From positions 5,580,001 through 5,644,000 of the forward strand of contig NZ_JADBEK010000001.1 in assembly GCF_014873145.1 (NCBI RefSeq): DNA of 64,000 bases. Reading direction: 5' to 3'. Both the position numbers and the translations under genes were made by a program. Of the stretch, positions 53,383 through 64,000 are shown piece after piece. The stretch is from Nonomuraea angiospora (GTDB taxonomy: Bacteria > Actinomycetota > Actinomycetes > Streptosporangiales > Streptosporangiaceae). Numbering within the stretch: the stretch's first letter is position 1; the number at the start of each line of letters is the position of its first letter. The notes beneath the pieces are model-generated. The model had not been told where the DNA came from and ran no database searches. It saw only the letters and a program-made list of their open reading frames with translations.

Positions 53383-55211
<1,829 letters not shown>

Positions 55212-55215
<4 letters not shown>

Positions 55216-57089
55216 TGACGCCGGAGGCCATCGGCCCGTATCGGGTGGTCAAGCAGCTCGGCGAGGGCGGCCAGGGCGTGGTCTACCTGGCCACCGCACC
55301 CGACGGCACCCCGGTGGCCGTCAAGGCGCTGCACGAGGGGCTGCCGGGTGACGGCCGGTTCGCGAAGGAGATCGCGGCCGCGCGGCGGGTGGAGCCGTTC
55401 TGCATCGCGCAGGTGCTGGACGCCTCGCTGGGCGGCCCACGGCCGTACATCGTGACCGAGTACGTGGAAGGCCCCTCCCTCCACCAGGCCGGCCGCCACA
55501 GCGGGGCCGACCTGCAACGGCTCGCCGTCGCCACGGCCACCGCGCTGGCCGCCATCCACCGGGCCGGCGTCGTCCACCGGGACTTCAAGCCCGCGAACGT
55601 GCTGCTCGGACGCGACGGGCCGCGCGTCATCGACTTCGGCATCGCCCGGGCCATGGACGCGGCGCTGACCCGTACCAGCAGCGTCGTGGGGACGCCCGCC
55701 TACATGGCGCCCGAGCAGTTCATGGGCGCCGCCGCGGGTCCGGCGGTGGACGTGTTCGCGTGGGGGGCCGTCATGGTGTACGCGGCCACGGGCGCCCCGC
55801 CGTTCGGCAACGACTCCGTGCCCGCGGTGCTCAGGCGGATCCAGTACGAGGAGCCGCAGCTCGGCGGGGTGCCGGAGCCGCTGCGCTCGATCGTGTACGC
55901 CTGCCTGGCCAAGGATCCGGCGGCCCGGCCCGCCATGCACGACGTCCTCTTCCAGCTGATCGGCGGTCAGGCGCCTCCTCCGTCTCCAGGCGGTCCGGCA
56001 GGTCCGCCGGCCTCGGGCTCAGCACCCCTGGGCTCAGGGCACGCGGGCCCGGCGGCGTTTCCCGGTCCGGCGGCGTCTCCAGGAGCGGCGGCGTTCCCAG
56101 GCGGCCCGGCGCACGTGGCCGCCCCAAGCCCGGCGTACCCAGGAGCGGCGGCGTTTCCGGGGCCGGTCGGGTTTCCGGGAGGGTCCGCGCATGGGGCCGG
56201 CCCTGGTCAGGTGCCTTTCCCTGCCGGACCAGGGCCAGCGCATAGGGCCGGCCCTGGTCAGGTGCCTTTCCCTCCCGGACCCCATGGGCCGGGCCCGAGC
56301 CGGAGGGGGCCCGGGCAGTATCCCGGCGGGCCGTTTCCGCACCAGCCGCCGATCGCCCACCTCCAGACCAACCCCGGACGGGCGGCCTCCGGCAACGGGC
56401 GCGTCCTCGCGTTCCTGGCCGGCGGGACCGCGGTCGTCGTGACCGGTGCCGTGGTGGCCGCCTGGGCCTGGGCGCCGTGGTGGCCCGGCCGGGCCACCAC
56501 CGCCAACATCGTCACGGCCTCCACCCCGACCGTCTCCGACCCGGGCACGGGGGCGAAGGGGTCCGCCAAGACCCCGCACCCCTCCAAGACCGCCAAGACC
56601 CCGAAGACCCCGAAAACTCCCAAGACCTCCACGACCCCCAAGGCCACCGCCCCGACCCGTCCCACCGCCGAGCCCACGGTCAGCCGAACGACCGAGCCCA
56701 CCACGAGGCCCAGCACCTCCAAACCGACCGAGCCCACCACGAGGCCCAGCACCTCCAAACCGACCGCGACCAGCGGCGGCGGGGTGAAGTCGGTGACCTT
56801 CCGGTTCGAGGGCTACAAGCTGAGCGACTGCTGGCGTAACGACACGAACATCTGGGCCACGGTCTCGGCCACGGGCACCTACAGCTACCGATGGCTCGTC
56901 AACGGCCAGAACCAGGGCAGGCAGGAGGGCACGGCGTCGTCGAAACCCCTGCTGCCGTCCATCACGTGGAAGGGCGCCGGCACGTACAACGTCGTCTTCG
57001 AGGTGGTCACCCCCACGAGCTTCAGGAAGAGCGCCACGGTGAAGATCTGCAGCAACAGCGAGAGCTGGGGCGAGGAGTGGCCGGACTAG
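55212..57089 (+). CDS. Receptor-like Ser/Thr protein kinase, paralogue of the preceding gene
   Basis: 625 residues from ATG 55212. Kinase domain about 8-260 with GEGGQGVVYLA, VAVKALH, HRDFKPAN, DFG, APE. A Pro/Gly/Ala-rich region (about 262-400) precedes a helix (VLAFLAGGTAVVVTGAVVAAWAWAP), then a Lys/Thr/Pro stalk with PTTRPSTSKPTE repeats and a Cys-flanked module (SDCWRND ... VKICSNS) with YRWLVNG. About 180 bp of the kinase domain are identical in DNA to the upstream gene. The stop shares CTAG with the convergent pseudogene. Confidence 0.9.
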
Positions 57090-57928
57090 CCTCGGCCCTT
57101 GGCCAGCAGCTCCTCGAACGTGGTCGCGGGGTGGCCGGTGAGCGTGGGGATCCCGTCGTCGACCCCCTCCAGCTCACCGGCGGCGATGGCCTCGTACGTC
57201 GACACCCACGCCGCCACCTGCCACCCGGGCGCGTTGTAGCCGCGCCGGGACTCGTACGCCTCTTCGACCGTCTCCGGGTGGTACGTGATCGTCCGCCCGG
57301 TCGCCCTGGTCAGCGCGGCGGCCACCTCGTCCAGCGTCAGGGCCTGCGGCCCAGTGAGGTCGTAGGTCGCGCCCTCGTGCGCGCCCGGGTCCAGCAGGAC
57401 GGCGGCCGCCGCCTCCGCGATGTCGTCCTGGGCCACCGCCGCGACCCGCCCCTGCCCGGCCGGGCCGCGGATCACGCCGTCCTCCCCCGCCATGCCCGGC
57501 AGGAAGTCGGCGTACAGGTTGTCACGCAGGAAGGTGAAGGGCAGGCCGCTGTCTCAGATGTGCTGCTCGGTGGCCCAATGGTCGCGCGCCAGTGTGAACG
57601 TAGCGTCCGGGGCGGCACCGTAGAACGAGATGTACACCAGGTGGTCGACCCCGGCGTCGCGCGCGGCGTCCACGAAAGTGCGATGCCGGTCGAGGCGGTC
57701 GGCGCTCTCCGACGCGGACACGAACAGCACGGTCGAGGCCCCTTCGAGGGCCCGCCGCACCGCGCCGGCGTCGCCGTACTCGGCGCTGACCGCCCTCGCG
57801 CCCGCGAGCGGGGCGACGCGGCCGGCCTGCCGTGAGACGAGCCGCTGCTCGGCCCCGGCGGCGGCGAGCAGCGCGGCCACCCGCCCGCCGAGGCGGCCGG
57901 TGGCACCGGTGGTGACGATGAGGCCCAT
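57086..57928 (-). pseudogene. NmrA/azoreductase-like NAD(P)-binding gene broken by an in-frame TGA
   Basis: The frame opens with VTTGATGRLGGRVAALLAAAGAE (Rossmann) and runs through DHLVYISFYGAAPDATFTLARDHWATEQHI. It then meets TGA at 57556-57554 (codon 125) and continues in the same frame with DSGLPFTFLRDNLYADFLPG to residue 280. The expected residue at the stop is Arg in ATEQHIRDSG, so CGA to TGA is the likely lesion. Without it this would be a normal 280-residue SDR of the NAD(P)H:quinone reductase type. A restart at ATG 57493 could give the C-terminal half only. Confidence 0.8.
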
Positions 57929-58015: not shown

Positions 58016-58756
58016 GTGCGTGTTCTGCTGCTCGTCCCAGCCGCCACCCTGTTGCTCTCGTCCGCCCCCGCCCAGCCCGACGTCGTGGAGTACGCGTGCA
58101 AGGTCCGCGCCACGGGCCAGACGCAGGACGTGAAGGTCGAGGTCGAGCTGACGGTGCCCACGGACGCGCAGGTGGGCGAGGAGATGGCCATCGGCTGGCA
58201 GGGCTCGTACGTGGAGGGCTCCGAGTTACGCGCACCCACCACGGGCCTGGGGGACGACCTCAACCTGTACGCGTACGCGGGCATCAGCGGCATCGACAAG
58301 CTGACGTCGGCCACCGGCGTCGCCGCGATCGGGCCGATCATCCCCGGGGCACCCGTCCCACTCCCCGCGACGACGGTCAACCTGAAGACGAGATCCAAGA
58401 ACCCGGGCACCGGCACCGTGCACGCGGCCTCCATCAACTTCGGCACCAGCTCCAGCGACCGCGCGATCGAGTGCGAGGTCAAGGACAAGGACGCCCTGAC
58501 GAAGCACCCCCTCACCATCCCGGGAACCGGCGACACCACGAGCCCCAGTGACAGCGCCAGCGAGAGCCCCAGTGACAGCCCCAGCCCCGGCGAGACGGAG
58601 ACGAAGACCAGGACCCCGGCGGGCGCGGCCGACACGGGTGGCGGTGGTGAGGCGGGGCCCGATGGGCGGGTGCTGGTGGGAGTGGGGTCGCTGCTCGTCC
58701 TCGCCTCCGTAACCGGCCTGGTCCTGCGGCGACGCAGGCTTGTAGCGGGCTTGTAG
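58016..58756 (+). CDS. Cell-surface protein with C-terminal membrane anchor (DUF6801-like)
   Basis: 246 residues from GTG 58016, with AAGGAG at five bases. Signal peptide VRVLLLVPAATLLLSSAPAQ. The mature domain VEYACKVRATGQTQDVKVEVELTVP resembles DUF6801 beta-sandwich surface proteins, with a Cys pair. A Ser/Pro/Asp-rich stretch leads to a C-terminal helix and RRRRL tail, as for surface anchoring, but without LPxTG. Its last codons overlap the heptamer repeats that precede the peptide gene. Confidence 0.72.
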   Translation: MRVLLLVPAATLLLSSAPAQPDVVEYACKVRATGQTQDVKVEVELTVPTDAQVGEEMAIGWQGSYVEGSELRAPTTGLGDDLNLYAYAGISGIDKLTSATGVAAIGPIIPGAPVPLPATTVNLKTRSKNPGTGTVHAASINFGTSSSDRAIECEVKDKDALTKHPLTIPGTGDTTSPSDSASESPSDSPSPGETETKTRTPAGAADTGGGGEAGPDGRVLVGVGSLLVLASVTGLVLRRRRLVAGL

Positions 58757-58768
58757 CGGCCCTGTAGG
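58740..58768 (+). promoter_or_regulatory. Candidate SARP box: three heptamers at 11-bp period
   Basis: TTGTAGC (58740-58746), TTGTAGC (58751-58757) and CTGTAGG (58762-58768), each spaced by 4 bases. This is the known layout of SARP/AfsR-type sites, which sit over the -35 region. A TGATCG hexamer begins 8 bases after the third repeat, the usual distance to the -10. An AfsR/SARP-type regulator lies at 61332-64000. Confidence 0.6.
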
Positions 58769-58841
58769 ACCTGGGCTGATCGTTTACGGCAGAGGGGCGC
58801 AAGGACAAGGCCCCCGGTCCCGAACAACGAGGGAGAGTCCC

Positions 58842-58919
58842 ATGGTCAAGACCGTTCGCCGGTACGCCAAGTACGCCATCAGCACGCTGTCGACCGCGGT
58901 TTTCGTCCTCAACGGCTGA
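58842..58919 (+). CDS. 25-residue peptide, putative precursor or signal peptide
   Basis: ATG 58842 with GAGGGAGAG eight bases upstream. The product starts MVKTVRRYAK, basic, and ends STAVFVLNG, hydrophobic; a charged head and a hydrophobic tail of about 14 residues ending Asn-Gly. No homologue recognised. It lies right behind the heptamer repeats, and is followed by a strong hairpin and the adenylate-forming enzyme gene. The ribosome site, codon use and position support it being translated, though a 25-codon gene cannot be proved by eye. Confidence 0.6.
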   Translation: MVKTVRRYAKYAISTLSTAVFVLNG

Positions 58920-58926
58920 CACCCAG

Positions 58927-58959
58927 GTGTCCCCCGGGCGCTCCGGGCCTGGGGGACAC
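58927..58959 (+). terminator. Strong hairpin between peptide gene and ligase gene
   Basis: GTGTCCCCCGGGC pairs with GCCTGGGGGACAC (13 bp with one G-T) around a 7-base loop, 7 bases after the peptide stop. No T-run follows, so it is more likely a stabiliser or partial terminator that raises peptide mRNA over downstream mRNA. Confidence 0.65.
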
Positions 58960-58988
58960 ACTGCACCATCGCGACAGGAGGGCGAGGC

Positions 58989-60371
58989 GTGTTCGGCACA
59001 GCGGTGCGGCAACTGGGCTACGCGTGGACGATGATGTCCGGCCGCAGGTTCCGGATCAAGGACGTGCGGGCGCTGGTGGAGGACACGCGGGCGACCATGG
59101 AGGCGTTCGGGTCGCCCGGCGAGGGCTCCGACGACATGCTCGCCGCCGCCGACCCGGAGATTCAGGAGGACCTCACGAAGCGGCGCCTGCGCCGGACGAT
59201 CCGGCACGCCCGCGCGGAGGTCCCGTACTACCGCGGCCTGGAGTCGGACGACCTGGCCGGCATCGCGCCCACCCCCAAGCAGGCGCTGCGCGGCATGTCC
59301 GCCGCGTTCGTCTCCGAGCTGGCCCGTCCCGCCGTGCTCGCGCACACGACCGGCACGACCGGCAGCCCCACGCTCGTGTGGTTCTCCGCGTACGAGATCG
59401 AGCTGATGTCGTCGATGGCGGCGCTCGCCGCGATGCTGAACGGCGGCCTGCGCTCCGAGCACCTGTGGGCCAATGCCATCAGCTCCCGTTCCATCGCCCA
59501 GATCGTGGCCGAGCGGGCGGTGCCGATGACGGGCGCGGGCTTCGTACACCTCGGCATGATCGACCCGCGCGCCACCCTCGACCGGCTGGCCACCCCGATG
59601 CACGTCCCCGGCAAGCAGCCCCTCATCACGCACCTGAACGTGACCGCCTCCTATCTGGCCGCGCTGGTGCAGGAGGCCGAGCGCGGCGGCTGGAGCCCGC
59701 GCGACTTCGGGCTCGTCGAGGTGACGTCCGGCGGCGAGGTGCTCACCGACGCGCTGCGCCTGCGGGCGGAGGAGGCCCTGGGGGCCAGGGTCTACGACGG
59801 CTACTCCATGACCGAGGTCGCGCCCGTCACCGGGCGGGTCTGCGACGACGGTCACCTGCATCTCCCCGCCGACCAGGGTCTGATCGAGGTGCTCGACCCG
59901 GTCACCATGGAGCCCGCCGGGCCGGACGCGCTCGGCGTCCTGGTCATCACCCCCTTCTCCACCTTCCGCGACACCACGCTGCTGCTGCGCTACGTCACCG
60001 GCGACCTGGTCAGAACCCTGCCCGAGCCGCCCACGTGCGCGCTGGCGGCGATCCCGGCGACCTCCCGCATCCTGGGACGCGCGGTGGACGGCGACGTGAC
60101 CACCCGTGACGTGCTGGACCTGCTGCAGGCCGAGCACGCGCTGCCGCTGCCGACCAGGTTCGCGGTCGAGGACGGGATCCTGCACGTCGTGTCGGGCAAG
60201 GACGACCCGGCGCTGCTCGGCCGGCTGGAGGAGCGGGCCGCCGCGACGAAGCTCGAGGGCATCGTGCTGGTCGAGAGCCCCGACGACCTGCCGCGCCCCT
60301 GCCACGTCCGGGCGGACCTGATCGAGCAGAGCTTCGAGCACGCCGCGCACCTCCCGATCGGAGTCCGATGA
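58989..60371 (+). CDS. PaaK-like adenylate-forming enzyme (phenylacetate-CoA ligase / F390 synthetase group)
   Basis: 460 residues from GTG 58989, with GGAGG seven bases upstream. AHTTGTTGSPTLVWFS is the ATP-binding loop, VEVTSGGEVL and YDGYSMTEVAPVTG the A4/A5 core, LLRYVTGDLV the A7 motif with its Asp, and VDGDVTTRDVLDLL near A8. It should activate a carboxylate as an acyl-AMP; the acceptor is unknown. No phenylacetate genes nearby. The stop overlaps the membrane-protein start as ATGA. With the peptide gene it may act on the peptide's carboxylate or acylate it. Confidence 0.82.
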   Translation: MFGTAVRQLGYAWTMMSGRRFRIKDVRALVEDTRATMEAFGSPGEGSDDMLAAADPEIQEDLTKRRLRRTIRHARAEVPYYRGLESDDLAGIAPTPKQALRGMSAAFVSELARPAVLAHTTGTTGSPTLVWFSAYEIELMSSMAALAAMLNGGLRSEHLWANAISSRSIAQIVAERAVPMTGAGFVHLGMIDPRATLDRLATPMHVPGKQPLITHLNVTASYLAALVQEAERGGWSPRDFGLVEVTSGGEVLTDALRLRAEEALGARVYDGYSMTEVAPVTGRVCDDGHLHLPADQGLIEVLDPVTMEPAGPDALGVLVITPFSTFRDTTLLLRYVTGDLVRTLPEPPTCALAAIPATSRILGRAVDGDVTTRDVLDLLQAEHALPLPTRFAVEDGILHVVSGKDDPALLGRLEERAAATKLEGIVLVESPDDLPRPCHVRADLIEQSFEHAAHLPIGVR

Positions 60372-61327
60372 CCGCGCACGTCCTGGGCCTGCACACGCTC
60401 ATCGCGCTGACCGTCGCGCTGGCGGCCCTGTTCCTGTCCCGGTACGAGATCCCGCGCCCGCCGGTCGGCAAGTTCGTCGGGTCCGACATCGCCGTCATGA
60501 TCGTGGCGCTGGTGGCGATGCCGTTCGCGTACCTGCACATCCCCGTCGGCGTCGTCGTGACGGTCTTCGGCGTCGTGGTGTTCACGCTCACGCAGCTCAC
60601 GCTGGCGCCGGTGCTCGGCGGGCGGACGGCGGCGATCGCGGCGGCGGTGCTGGTCGGCGGCGACGTGGCCGCGTACTTCGCCGGCTGGGAGCCCGCCGTC
60701 CTCGTGCTGAACGACGTGGCGGTGATCCTGCTCGTCGTGGGGGTGGTCAACCTCTGGGTCCAGACGGCCGTCACCCCGGCCCAGGTGGCCGCCCTGGCCG
60801 CCGCGCTGACCTGCTACGACACGCTCGCCACCGGGCTCAGCTCGCTCACGCTCGACTTCGTGGCGCGGCTGGACGGGCTGCCGTTCGCGCCGGTGCTGGC
60901 CACCCGCTACGGCGCCGACGCCTCGCTCGTCGGGCTGGGCGACTGCCTCATGCTCACGTTGTGGCCGCTGGTGGCGTACAAGAGGTACGGCAGGCGCGCC
61001 GGCTGGCTGGCCGCCGGGATCGACGCCGCGCTGCTGGCCGTCGCGGCCACGGCCTTCCTGGCCGGGAGCGGCGCGATCCCGCTGCTGACCCCGCTCGGCC
61101 CGCTCATCGTCGCGCAGTGGCTCTTCTGGCGCACCCGCCCCGTCCCGGCGCCGTCGCGGCCGGTGGTGGAGCGGGCGCTGGGCGAGGCGATCCCCGCGGG
61201 CGTGTGGGTGGCGCTGGCGGACGGCGAGATCGTGGGCGAGGGCCCCACGCCGGGAAGCGCCCGGCGGGCGGCCCGGCAGTCGGGCCTCGAGACCGTCCCC
61301 GTGGTGCGGCACCGCCCCGCCGAATGA
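60368..61327 (+). CDS. Putative GxGD-type intramembrane aspartyl protease
   Basis: 319 residues with about eight to nine hydrophobic helices. LTCYDTLATGLSSLTLDF (Asp151) and VGLGDCLMLTLWPLVAYK (Asp192) match the YD and GxGD motifs of presenilin/signal-peptide peptidase, 41 residues apart on successive helices. LLTPLGPLIVA further on recalls the PAL motif. A short soluble tail ends it. It is coupled to the ligase gene and follows the peptide gene, so it may cut that peptide in the membrane. The family assignment is by motif only. Confidence 0.6.
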   Translation: MTAHVLGLHTLIALTVALAALFLSRYEIPRPPVGKFVGSDIAVMIVALVAMPFAYLHIPVGVVVTVFGVVVFTLTQLTLAPVLGGRTAAIAAAVLVGGDVAAYFAGWEPAVLVLNDVAVILLVVGVVNLWVQTAVTPAQVAALAAALTCYDTLATGLSSLTLDFVARLDGLPFAPVLATRYGADASLVGLGDCLMLTLWPLVAYKRYGRRAGWLAAGIDAALLAVAATAFLAGSGAIPLLTPLGPLIVAQWLFWRTRPVPAPSRPVVERALGEAIPAGVWVALADGEIVGEGPTPGSARRAARQSGLETVPVVRHRPAE

Positions 61328-61331
61328 CAGG

Positions 61332-64000
61332 TCAGTCCTGGTCCGCGCTCAGGAAGTCCTCGACCTGGGCCCGTTCCGGCCCGCTCTCGAACAGCTCGGC
61401 CGACTGGCGCCACACCGCCGCCGCGCACGGGTGCTCCCCCAGCTCGGCGTACGCGCGGCCGAGCTCCCTGAGCACGCGGGCCCGCCAGGTCGGCGGCCCG
61501 CCGGGGCCGAGCCCGTCGCGGGCGGTGACCAGCAGGCCGAGCGCCTCCGCGGCGCGCCCCTGCCGCAGCCGCACCTCGCCCAGCGCGTACGTGGCCAGCG
61601 CCTCCCCCAGCCCGTCCCCGCACTCGCGGAAGAGCGACCTGGCCCGGTCGAGCGCCTCCACGGCCTCGTCGAAGCGCCCGAGCGCCCCCAGCGCCTCACC
61701 GAGCCTGCGCAGCCCCCTGCTGGCCGCGACGCGGTCCCCGATCAGCTCGCTGATCACCAGGCTCTCCTGGTAGCACCACACGGCCTCGGCCACCTCGCCG
61801 TGCCGGTAGCGGGCGATGCCCAGGGCCCGCAGCAGGTCGCCGCGGGCCCGCCGGTCCTCCCCCGTCCTGGCCAGCCGCTCCTGGCAGAGCCGCACCGCCT
61901 CGCCGTACCGGCCCAGCTCCATGTGCATGTAGACGGGCCACGTCCAGGCGTAGTCGAGCCCGCCCTCGTCGCCCAGCTCCTCCAGCAGGGCGATGGCCCG
62001 GTGCGCCTCCTCCAGCCCCTCCTCGAACAGCCCGGCCCCGTGGAGGCAGGCCGCCCGGTTGATCAGCGCGTACGCGGCCCCGTGCGAGTCCCCGATCCGC
62101 AAGCAGTCCTGATATATCCGGCCGAAGTGCTCTCCCGACGGCCCGTAAGCCCCGCGCGACAGCGGCACCCCGGCCAGCAGCAGCTCGGCCCGCAGCGCGA
62201 TCCGCTCGCTCGGCGCCGCCGCGATCACGATCCGCTGCAGCCGCTCCACGTCGTCGAAGAACCCCTCCAGGTTCAGGTACGCCGACAGGTGGTGCGCCAG
62301 CTCGGCCGCCTCCTCCGCCATCCCCAGCTCGACGGCCGCCGACACGCTGTGGACGAGCGTCCTGCGCTCCGCGGCCAGCCACGCGATCCCCACGCCGTCC
62401 ATCCCCTCCGCCTGCGGGAAGGGCGGCGCCGTCGGGATGGGCAGGTCGCTGGTGGCCGCCCTGAGCCGGCGCAGGCACTCCCGCACGTGCCGAGTCAGCG
62501 CCGCCCGCTGCTCCTGCGGGTCGTCCTCGACCCGGGCCCGCTCTTCGGCGTACACGCGTAACAGGTCGTGCAGGCGGTAACGCGGCTGCCCCGCCCCGTC
62601 GACCTCGCCCGAGTCGAGCATCCCCCTGGCGACCAGCGTCTCCAGCGCCGCGTCCGTCTCCAGCCCGGACGAGCCGAGCAGGGCCGCCGCCGACCACTCG
62701 GCGATGCTCCCCAGGTCGGCCAGCCCGAGCAGCCTGAACGCCCGCCGCGCCGGCTCCGGCAGGGCCGCGTAGCTCTCCCCGAACGTGCTCCGCACGTCCA
62801 GCCCGCCCACGATCAGCTCGTCGAGCCGCCGGTCCTCCAGCCTGCTGGCGAACACGCCGACCGGCCAGGCCGGGCGGATCGCCAGCCGCGCGCCCGCGAC
62901 CCTGATCGCCAGCGGCAGCAGCCCGCAGGCCTTCAGGATCGCCCGCGCGGCCTCCGGCGCGGCGCGGAAGCGCGCCCCGCCCGCCACCCGCTCAAGCAGC
63001 AGCCGGGCGTCGTGCTCGCCGGGCAGGTCGAGCTGCAGCCGGGTGGCCCCCTCCAGGGCGGGCAGCCGCGACCTGGACGTCACCAGCACGCAGCTGCGCG
63101 CGGTGCCGGGCAGCAGGTGGCGCACCTGCGTCTCGTCCTGGGCGTCGTCGAGCACGATGAGCACGCCCATGTCGGCCAGGCGCTGCCTGAGCAGGCTCGC
63201 CCGCTCCTCCAGCGGCCCCGGGACCAGCGTGCCGTCCACGCCCAGCGAGCGCAGCAGCTCGCCGAGCAGGTCCTCCGGCCGCCGCGGGCCGGCCGCGTCC
63301 CGGCCCAGCCGCAGGAAGACCTGCCCGTCGGGGTAGTCGGCGCGTAACAGGTGCGCCGCGTGCACGGTGAGCGTGGTCTTCCCCACTCCGGGCAGCCCCG
63401 ACACGACCACGATGGGCGGCGACATCCGCTCCGGCCGGGCCCGCGCGGCGGGGAGCAGCACGTCCAGCTCGGCCTTGCGGCCCACGAAGTCGGAGGTGTC
63501 GGCGGGCAGCTGGCACAGCGGCACGCGCTGGGAGACCGTGGCGCTCGGCGCGGGGTCGCCGGCCAGCAGGGCGGCGTGCAGGTCGGCCAGCTCGCGGCCC
63601 GGCTCGATGCCCAGCTCGCTGCTGAGCACCGCGCGGGCCTGGCGGAAGGCGTCGAGCGCCTCGCTGCGCCGCCCGCTCCTGTGCAGGGCCAGCATGAGCT
63701 GTGCCCACAGCCGCTCGCGCAGCGGGTGGCCGGCGACCAGCGTGCGCAGCTCGACCACCAGGTCTTCGCCGCCGAGCTCCAGCCGGACGTCGATCCACTC
63801 GGACCTGGCCAGGAGGAGCTGCTCCTCCAGCTCGGCGATCCTGGGCTCCATCGCGCTGCCGAGCCGGCTGTCCTCGGCCGGCCTGCCCCGCCACAGGGAC
63901 ACCGCCGTCTTGTAGGCCTGCTCCGCGGCCTGGTGCTCGCCCGCCTGCCGCGCGCGCCGCGCCCGGCGTACGACGTCCTCGAACGCGAGCAGGTCGAGCC
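61332..64000 (-). CDS. AfsR/SARP-like transcriptional regulator (BTAD + NB-ARC + TPR), N-terminus cut by window edge
   Basis: About 889 residues are visible. The bacterial transcriptional activation domain (BTAD) runs to LLAGDP: SLWRGRPAEDSRLGS, LELGGEDLVVELRTLVAGHPLRERLWAQLMLALHRSGRRSEALDAFRQAR. NB-ARC: VVSGLPGVGKTTLTVHAA (Walker A), VLIVLDDAQDE (Walker B), and LVTSRSRLPAL. Several TPR-like repeats fill the C-terminal half (LGEALGALGRFDEAVEALDRAR). The OmpR-like DNA-binding domain lies beyond the right edge. It ends 4 bases from the GxGD gene in convergent orientation. Confidence 0.92.
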   Translation of the reverse strand, partial: LDLLAFEDVVRRARRARQAGEHQAAEQAYKTAVSLWRGRPAEDSRLGSAMEPRIAELEEQLLLARSEWIDVRLELGGEDLVVELRTLVAGHPLRERLWAQLMLALHRSGRRSEALDAFRQARAVLSSELGIEPGRELADLHAALLAGDPAPSATVSQRVPLCQLPADTSDFVGRKAELDVLLPAARARPERMSPPIVVVSGLPGVGKTTLTVHAAHLLRADYPDGQVFLRLGRDAAGPRRPEDLLGELLRSLGVDGTLVPGPLEERASLLRQRLADMGVLIVLDDAQDETQVRHLLPGTARSCVLVTSRSRLPALEGATRLQLDLPGEHDARLLLERVAGGARFRAAPEAARAILKACGLLPLAIRVAGARLAIRPAWPVGVFASRLEDRRLDELIVGGLDVRSTFGESYAALPEPARRAFRLLGLADLGSIAEWSAAALLGSSGLETDAALETLVARGMLDSGEVDGAGQPRYRLHDLLRVYAEERARVEDDPQEQRAALTRHVRECLRRLRAATSDLPIPTAPPFPQAEGMDGVGIAWLAAERRTLVHSVSAAVELGMAEEAAELAHHLSAYLNLEGFFDDVERLQRIVIAAAPSERIALRAELLLAGVPLSRGAYGPSGEHFGRIYQDCLRIGDSHGAAYALINRAACLHGAGLFEEGLEEAHRAIALLEELGDEGGLDYAWTWPVYMHMELGRYGEAVRLCQERLARTGEDRRARGDLLRALGIARYRHGEVAEAVWCYQESLVISELIGDRVAASRGLRRLGEALGALGRFDEAVEALDRARSLFRECGDGLGEALATYALGEVRLRQGRAAEALGLLVTARDGLGPGGPPTWRARVLRELGRAYAELGEHPCAAAVWRQSAELFESGPERAQVEDFLSADQD

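Follow-up and report, generated by a model that had tools for sequence, protein, structure and literature searches.

What does a gene of only 25 codons contribute when it lies directly in front of genes for an adenylate-forming enzyme and a membrane protein? The question is raised by a 64,000-nucleotide stretch of the genome of the soil bacterium Nonomuraea angiospora (contig NZ_JADBEK010000001.1, positions 5,580,001 to 5,644,000; hereafter the window, in whose numbering positions are given), the genome itself being a single contig of 13.09 Mb. On the forward strand the peptide gene (58842..58919, ATG at 58842, stop codon ending at 58919) follows a ribosome site, AGGGAGAG, at 58830-58837, and encodes a body, MVKTVRRYAKYAISTLSTAVF, with a variable tail, VLNG. 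Downstream on the same strand are a GC-rich hairpin in the peptide/ligase intergenic region (about 58924..58963), the gene of a 460-residue PaaK-like adenylate-forming enzyme with a GTG start (58989..60371), and the gene of a 319-residue GxGD membrane protein of predicted presenilin/signal peptide peptidase (SPP) fold (60368..61327), the ATG of which overlaps the ligase stop codon (ATGA coupling). A convergent gene on the reverse strand (61332..64000) encodes a regulator of the Streptomyces antibiotic regulatory protein (SARP) type, with its N-terminus beyond the window end. An initial description made from the letters alone (the sequence-only reading) had listed a gene of 25 codons preceded by a good ribosome site, a hairpin after it, a PaaK-like ligase gene coupled by ATGA to a membrane-protein gene with YD/GLGD motifs, and three heptamers of 11-bp period before the peptide with a convergent SARP-type regulator, all of which were recovered at the same coordinates. 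On the basis of conservation, gene order, predicted folds, catalytic motifs and DNA repeats, we lean towards the block being a compact mobile operon for peptide maturation, switched by the SARP in Nonomuraea, in which a protease would cut the precursor and the ligase would activate a carboxylate.

Conservation of the peptide beside its two partners carries this reading. Ligase/protease loci were collected from genomes and plasmid records, 33 of them with an open ligase frame (460-505 codons; L005 and L057 are cut by contig ends past the ligase), and 32 of the 33 proved to carry a homologous peptide ahead of the ligase, at a distance of 56-367 bp. The sequence-only reading had named its own point of failure, a peptide that is not conserved next to the ligase and protease; the survey instead bore out a conserved peptide-ligase-protease block with a kept body and a variable end. 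A search of 54 same-genus genomes with the peptide alone as query gave hits at E <= 0.011 in 15 genomes; these hits mark 16 places, and at every one a block ligase follows shortly downstream. One further place matched at E 3.3. Full-length block ligases numbered 17, in 16 of these genomes; the seventeenth, in G038, is accompanied by a diverged peptide revealed only by a looser motif, and block remnants occur in two further genomes (G017, G049), with no match to the peptide query below E 3 in the remaining 36. The ligase query also catches distant PaaK-like paralogues, so that 47 of the 54 genomes show some match. The remnant in G017 (L049) is a degenerate copy whose match values are identical to those of L133 from N. 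gerenzanensis, its ligase match covering residues 251-450 only and its protease match running across two frames; no peptide was found in this copy. A body motif derived from these peptides gave 34 matches in 1.11 Mb strand-bases, every one of them this peptide (29 distinct loci plus five counted twice; L058 was missed). Conservation of the peptide beside the ligase rules out chance. The window's own block is 98% identical to its Nonomuraea jabiensis counterpart.

The putative peptides are 22-31 residues long and share a bipartite organization. Their body has a start rich in Lys/Arg that continues roughly as [RK]Y..[SG].[LM][ST]..[VILMF]F, and it ends in a tail of 3-8 residues, of which 23 distinct versions occur in 30 loci (including VLNG, VHIG, VHAA, VLQV, TTG, QLPCS, TSSAA, THAI, VFST, TISNEISV, SSVSSVTF, GSCSTS and SLCHAS), with tail length and composition shifting by clade. 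When the 12 loci without indels were compared, differences per codon position were 0.18/0.13/0.34 in body codons 2-21 and 0.28/0.50/0.33 in tail codons 22-25; the body, not the tail, is therefore kept at the amino-acid level. The segment past the last Lys/Arg measures 14-19 residues (best Kyte-Doolittle mean 0.8-1.9; hydrophobic moment of the peptide 0.29-0.61), Ser, Thr and Gly are frequent in its hydrophobic part, and it appears to resemble a signal-peptide h-region of moderate hydrophobicity. A precursor gene beside enzyme genes, with a conserved body and a variable tail, is the organization of a ribosomally synthesized and post-translationally modified peptide (RiPP), the body probably corresponding to the leader and the tail to the core. 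Two genomes carry two diverged block copies each, with differing tails (G043: L046, L051; G165: L056, L063).

Both putative enzymes keep the motif residues of their superfamilies. In the ligase, T121, G122, T123 and G125, T275 and E276, and R334, Y335, T337 and D339 are invariant in two alignments (17 and 70 sequences), so that the P-loop, TE and RYxTxD adenylation motifs of a PaaK-like ANL enzyme are all retained, and the predicted PaaK fold spans 355-399 of the 460 residues. The membrane protein is modelled as a nine-helix presenilin/SPP fold, which supports its assignment, already proposed in the sequence-only reading, as a probable GxGD protease. In this model Y150 and D151 lie in helix 137-157 and G189, G191 and D192 of the GLGD motif (189-192) at helix 190-207, placing YD and GxGD on adjacent transmembrane helices; both motifs are invariant in 96 aligned sequences, as is Pro245 at the last long helix, which does not stand within a PAL tripeptide. 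Scans of Pfam and NCBIfam at E<=1, in which HMMER filters remove most matches above 0.1, listed no curated A22 family for this protein, and a profile search against PDB sequences returned no presenilin at E<=10. The matches that did appear were discarded as weak and unrelated (DUF5678, E 0.039; thymidine phosphorylase, E 0.035) or as chance-level (one SecD row in the PDB search). Residues 265-319, where the DUF5678 match falls, form a small C-terminal beta domain; most members of the window's clade have this domain (L051 does not), and L054 and L059-L063 lack it.

Counting the own genome each time, the protease was found in 17/54 same-genus, 11/200 family-sample, 21/297 order-sample, 5/394 class-sample and 2/396 phylum-sample genomes, the matches other than the own genome in the last two samples lying at E 3e-4 to 9e-4. 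When the neighbours of 33 loci were clustered (a set that includes L049 and L092 and leaves out the plasmid loci), ligase, protease and SARP were the only families common to at least 18 loci, the next occurring in seven; the gene caller missed some genes that BLAST recovered (the L063 ligase, the L056 and L101 SARPs). No additional conserved block gene emerged from this clustering, and flanks vary between clades. Peptide, ligase and protease remain neighbours in differing flanks, and two copies are carried on Streptomyces plasmids; the block thus acts like a mobile module, in the manner of operons for products or signalling.

Between peptide and ligase, the 75 bases 3' of the peptide stop fold at -41.4 kcal/mol in the window (z -2.2 against 60 base-composition shuffles); across all 30 loci folded the energies range from -33 to -50 kcal/mol, with z <= -2 in 22 of them. 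Perfect stems of at least 10 bp occur in 18/32 loci; in the other 14, the window with its interrupted stem included, the longest-perfect-stem test found none. A hairpin that separates precursor and enzyme genes commonly keeps precursor mRNA in excess, and the one described here may act as an attenuator or RNA-stability element, keeping the level of peptide mRNA above that of the enzyme mRNA.

The complete regulator, read into the flanking genome sequence, has 996 residues and contains the ODB (Trans_reg_C) and BTAD domains of a SARP, followed by NB-ARC and TPR domains. A SARP adjoins 19 of the 33 loci, convergently in 15 including the window and divergently in four (L088, L089, L090 and L101; in L101 it lies about 0.8 kb from the peptide, and a small gene could fit between), and two loci (L005, L057) are cut by contig ends. 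In the window, three SARP-type heptamers (TTGTAGC, TTGTAGC and CTGTAGG, starting at 58740, 58751 and 58762; 58740..58768, forward strand) precede a candidate -10 region, TGATCGTT (58777..58784, forward strand), placed 8 bp 3' of the third. Passages of PMC10936776 describe SARP targets as direct repeats spaced by 11 or 22 bp, the last 8 bp from the -10 element. No other exact triple occurs in the 13-Mb genome, and the exact triple of the window compares with 0.16 occurrences expected there at up to three mismatches. Scored as NTGTAGN with 11-bp period, it reaches at least 12/15 upstream of the peptide in 13 of the 15 loci with a convergent SARP, a score attained by 0/500 shuffles in each of the 13, and the truncated loci L005 and L057 score 15 and 7; scores are 8 or lower in the nine scored loci that lack a SARP (L091, L131 and L132 were left out of the scoring). 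The TGATCGTT block recurs at the same spacing in L003 and L004, and a looser block is seen elsewhere. Across the 54 genomes six exact triples were counted, four of them upstream of the peptide, and three for a reversed control pattern; at up to two mismatches the own genome holds five triples against seven for the control. No regulon is therefore claimed from these counts.

Two further sites of this kind were noted. A second triple-like site with two mismatches, followed by TGATCGTT at the same spacing, occurs elsewhere in the own genome (L130:6604-6899, C1:6418603 on) upstream of a gene for a 71-residue secreted Cys-containing protein, possibly a second SARP target. At L129:7984-10851 a gene that looks SARP-like by eye has a TGTGG/TGTAG triple of its own next to its start, on the other strand.

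Taken together, these features suggest the following course of events. In Nonomuraea the SARP would bind the three heptamers and switch the operon on. The precursor, with a basic N-terminal part and a short hydrophobic part like the remnant of a type II signal peptide, followed by the tail, would insert into the membrane N-in, and the dedicated presenilin/SPP-type protease would cut within or beside the hydrophobic stretch, freeing the tail on the outer face; no transporter would therefore be needed. SPP needs no partner proteins to cut type II proteins and does so chiefly at a single position that follows a helix-breaking residue, as passages of PMC2947513 report. The PaaK-like enzyme would adenylate a carboxylate, most likely that of a small acid which is then joined to the peptide and less likely the peptide's own new C-terminus. 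More tentatively, the block may define a new ribosomal peptide class in which a bacterial presenilin-type aspartyl protease has evolved for one short precursor, cut in the membrane, the 3-8 residue tail leaves without a transporter, an ANL enzyme either adds a cap to the peptide or activates its new C-terminus, and the product closes the loop via the SARP in Nonomuraea. The end product may be an antibiotic-like RiPP or a pheromone. In the sequence-only reading the peptide was processed in the membrane and acylated or otherwise modified to a signal or lipopeptide, a proposal that is conjectural.

Several observations weigh against the maturation operon, or against parts of it. One locus, L091, has ligase and protease relatives and no recognisable peptide, which may have been lost or be too diverged. 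The tails share no common residue that would mark a modification site, and could be unconstrained rather than diversified; the peptide may also bind the enzymes without being their substrate. We know of no ANL enzyme that activates a peptide carboxylate. The fold 3' of the peptide does not clearly beat shuffles everywhere, z lying above -2 in 8 of 30 loci. As to the SARP link drawn in the sequence-only reading, the tie between heptamers and a convergent SARP held, and the SARP is not obligatory: 12 of the 33 loci have no SARP neighbour within the stretch examined, some of these stretches reaching only a short way on one side (e.g. 2.4 kb upstream in L102), the convergent loci L052 (score 11, reached by 5/500 shuffles) and L053 (score 8) lack a TGTAG triple, and so do all four divergent loci (score 8 or lower).

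The loci without a SARP also bear on an alternative in which the freed, perhaps capped, tail returns as a quorum signal that the NB-ARC/TPR part of the SARP senses to raise peptide expression by positive feedback, as in SHP/Rgg with Eep. Such a pheromone would account for SARP and operon lying side by side in two orientations, for the placing of the genome's only exact SARP-type triple at the peptide gene, and for the TPR domain; passages of PMC10936776 describe the NOD and TPR domains of AfsR as restraining its SARP domain. The L056 SARP, however, is small, with DNA-binding and BTAD parts only and no sensor domains, so that the SARP need not be the receptor, and that of L006 (808-aa frame) matches only residues 1-521 of the window's SARP in the listed stretch; these two weaken TPR sensing as an obligatory step, and loci with a sensor-less SARP or none appear to argue against the SARP as a universal receptor. 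The block also contains no importer, and we regard the pheromone as possible but unlikely.

The peptide could instead serve the ligase or the protease as a small membrane subunit or as a regulator, the enzymes making a non-peptide product or serving membrane quality control. A conserved body with a loosely constrained tail would fit a docking helix with a free end, as would the hydrophobic moment of the peptide, but the gene order peptide-hairpin-enzymes, the clade-wise shifts in the tail and the preference of the GxGD protease superfamily, which acts on hydrophobic helices, make this rather improbable. A third alternative, in which the peptide yields no product itself and acts as a leader or arrest peptide, controlling expression of the ligase via the hairpin, would explain the foldable GC-rich stretch directly 3' of the stop. 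Arrest and attenuation peptides keep their C-terminal codons; here the C-terminus varies and the preceding 20 residues are kept, and TTTT occurs within 75 bases 3' of the stop in just 1 of 32 loci (L088), so we hold this explanation to be very improbable.

Upstream of the operon, the heptamers overlap the 3' end of a forward-strand gene (58016..58756) for a Ser-rich secreted protein with a C-terminal sorting-like end (NCBIfam GVDTG_CTERM, E 2e-4, under the cut-off). It is preceded by a gene on the reverse strand (57086-57928), by eye NAD(P)-binding reductase-like, that is interrupted by an in-frame stop; the same-family frame of the related locus L093 is intact (281 codons). Further upstream (53383-57089, forward strand) lies a tandem pair of genes, Ser/Thr-kinase-like by eye, the kinase stretches of which are nearly identical and the linkers long and rich in Pro/Thr.

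Should the new peptide class be borne out, its protease would represent a bacterial branch of the presenilin/SPP fold whose natural substrate is genetically linked to it. Each putative protease shares an operon with its likely substrate, in many natural variants, which offers a comparative set for how helices are chosen and cut. Passages of PMC2947513 place the biochemistry of presenilin-like proteases in eukaryotes and archaea, the natural substrates of the archaeal enzyme being unknown to its authors in 2010, and name prepilin peptidases as the bacterial GxGD enzymes; a review on bacteria tabulates presenilin (A22), in the passages seen, with a eukaryotic enzyme as example (PMC7593790). In the open-licence PMC literature we found no bacterial presenilin-fold protease with a linked substrate, and no described system matching the peptide-ligase-protease set. 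An aspartyl intramembrane protease would also join the RiPP leader-removal enzymes, in the review of which (PMC10885120) the words aspartic, aspartyl and presenilin do not occur in the main text. There is a fair chance that the block represents a new RiPP class; it points genome miners to unannotated peptides and suggests an undescribed route to a peptide signal or antibiotic, involving a membrane protein whose predicted fold resembles that of presenilin, the human Alzheimer protease.

Each component has recognisable relatives. With presenilin, SPP and the archaeal presenilin/SPP homologues the modelled membrane protein shares the nine-helix fold, a beta-hairpin ahead of the GxGD helix, a YD motif on the helix next to it and an invariant Pro starting the last long helix; it differs in being bacterial, in lacking a Pfam/NCBIfam match and PAL, and in having dedicated peptide and ligase partners. 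Archaeal MCMJR1 likewise has no obvious PAL, according to passages of PMC2947513. Type 4 prepilin peptidases are also bacterial GxGD diaspartyl membrane proteases, but their aspartates lie in soluble regions, several transmembrane segments apart, and they cut outside the membrane (as described in passages of PMC2947513), in contrast to the adjacent YD and GxGD helices of the presenilin fold modelled here. The ligase is 16-24% identical to solved PaaK-like AMP ligases (PaaK, NatL2, AjiA1, ClxA, BagE/FevW) and differs from this group in having a ribosomal peptide as its partner. The peptide itself we take to be unlike AfsS, and the likely target of the regulator here is this peptide operon. AfsR-AfsS offers, in passages of PMC10936776, a large SARP that activates a small gene via 11-bp repeats.

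Two peptide systems come nearest. The enzyme partner in EpeXEP is a radical SAM epimerase, and SHP/Rgg has a TPR-type regulator in common with the block. Like the block, EpeXEP combines a short precursor with an intramembrane protease to which its cleavage and export are ascribed, and there, as passages of PMC10885120 describe, the protease suffices for product formation; EpeP is an M50 metalloprotease whose deletion leaves some EpeX. The block enzymes are instead a PaaK-fold ligase and a presenilin-fold protein, which places the block outside EpeXEP. SHP/Rgg with Eep shares the short peptide with an active C-terminal end and the membrane-embedded protease (passages of PMC3150281), whereas here the predicted protease, modelled with a presenilin fold, is an aspartyl and not a metallo enzyme, the regulator is a SARP and not an Rgg, and a ligase is added, so that the block does not belong to SHP/Rgg (RRNPP). 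EpeXEP and SHP/Rgg-Eep are nearest in logic, and membership in either fails on protease and partner. Every part of the block comes from a known superfamily, and the combination is a variant of peptide-plus-intramembrane-protease systems.

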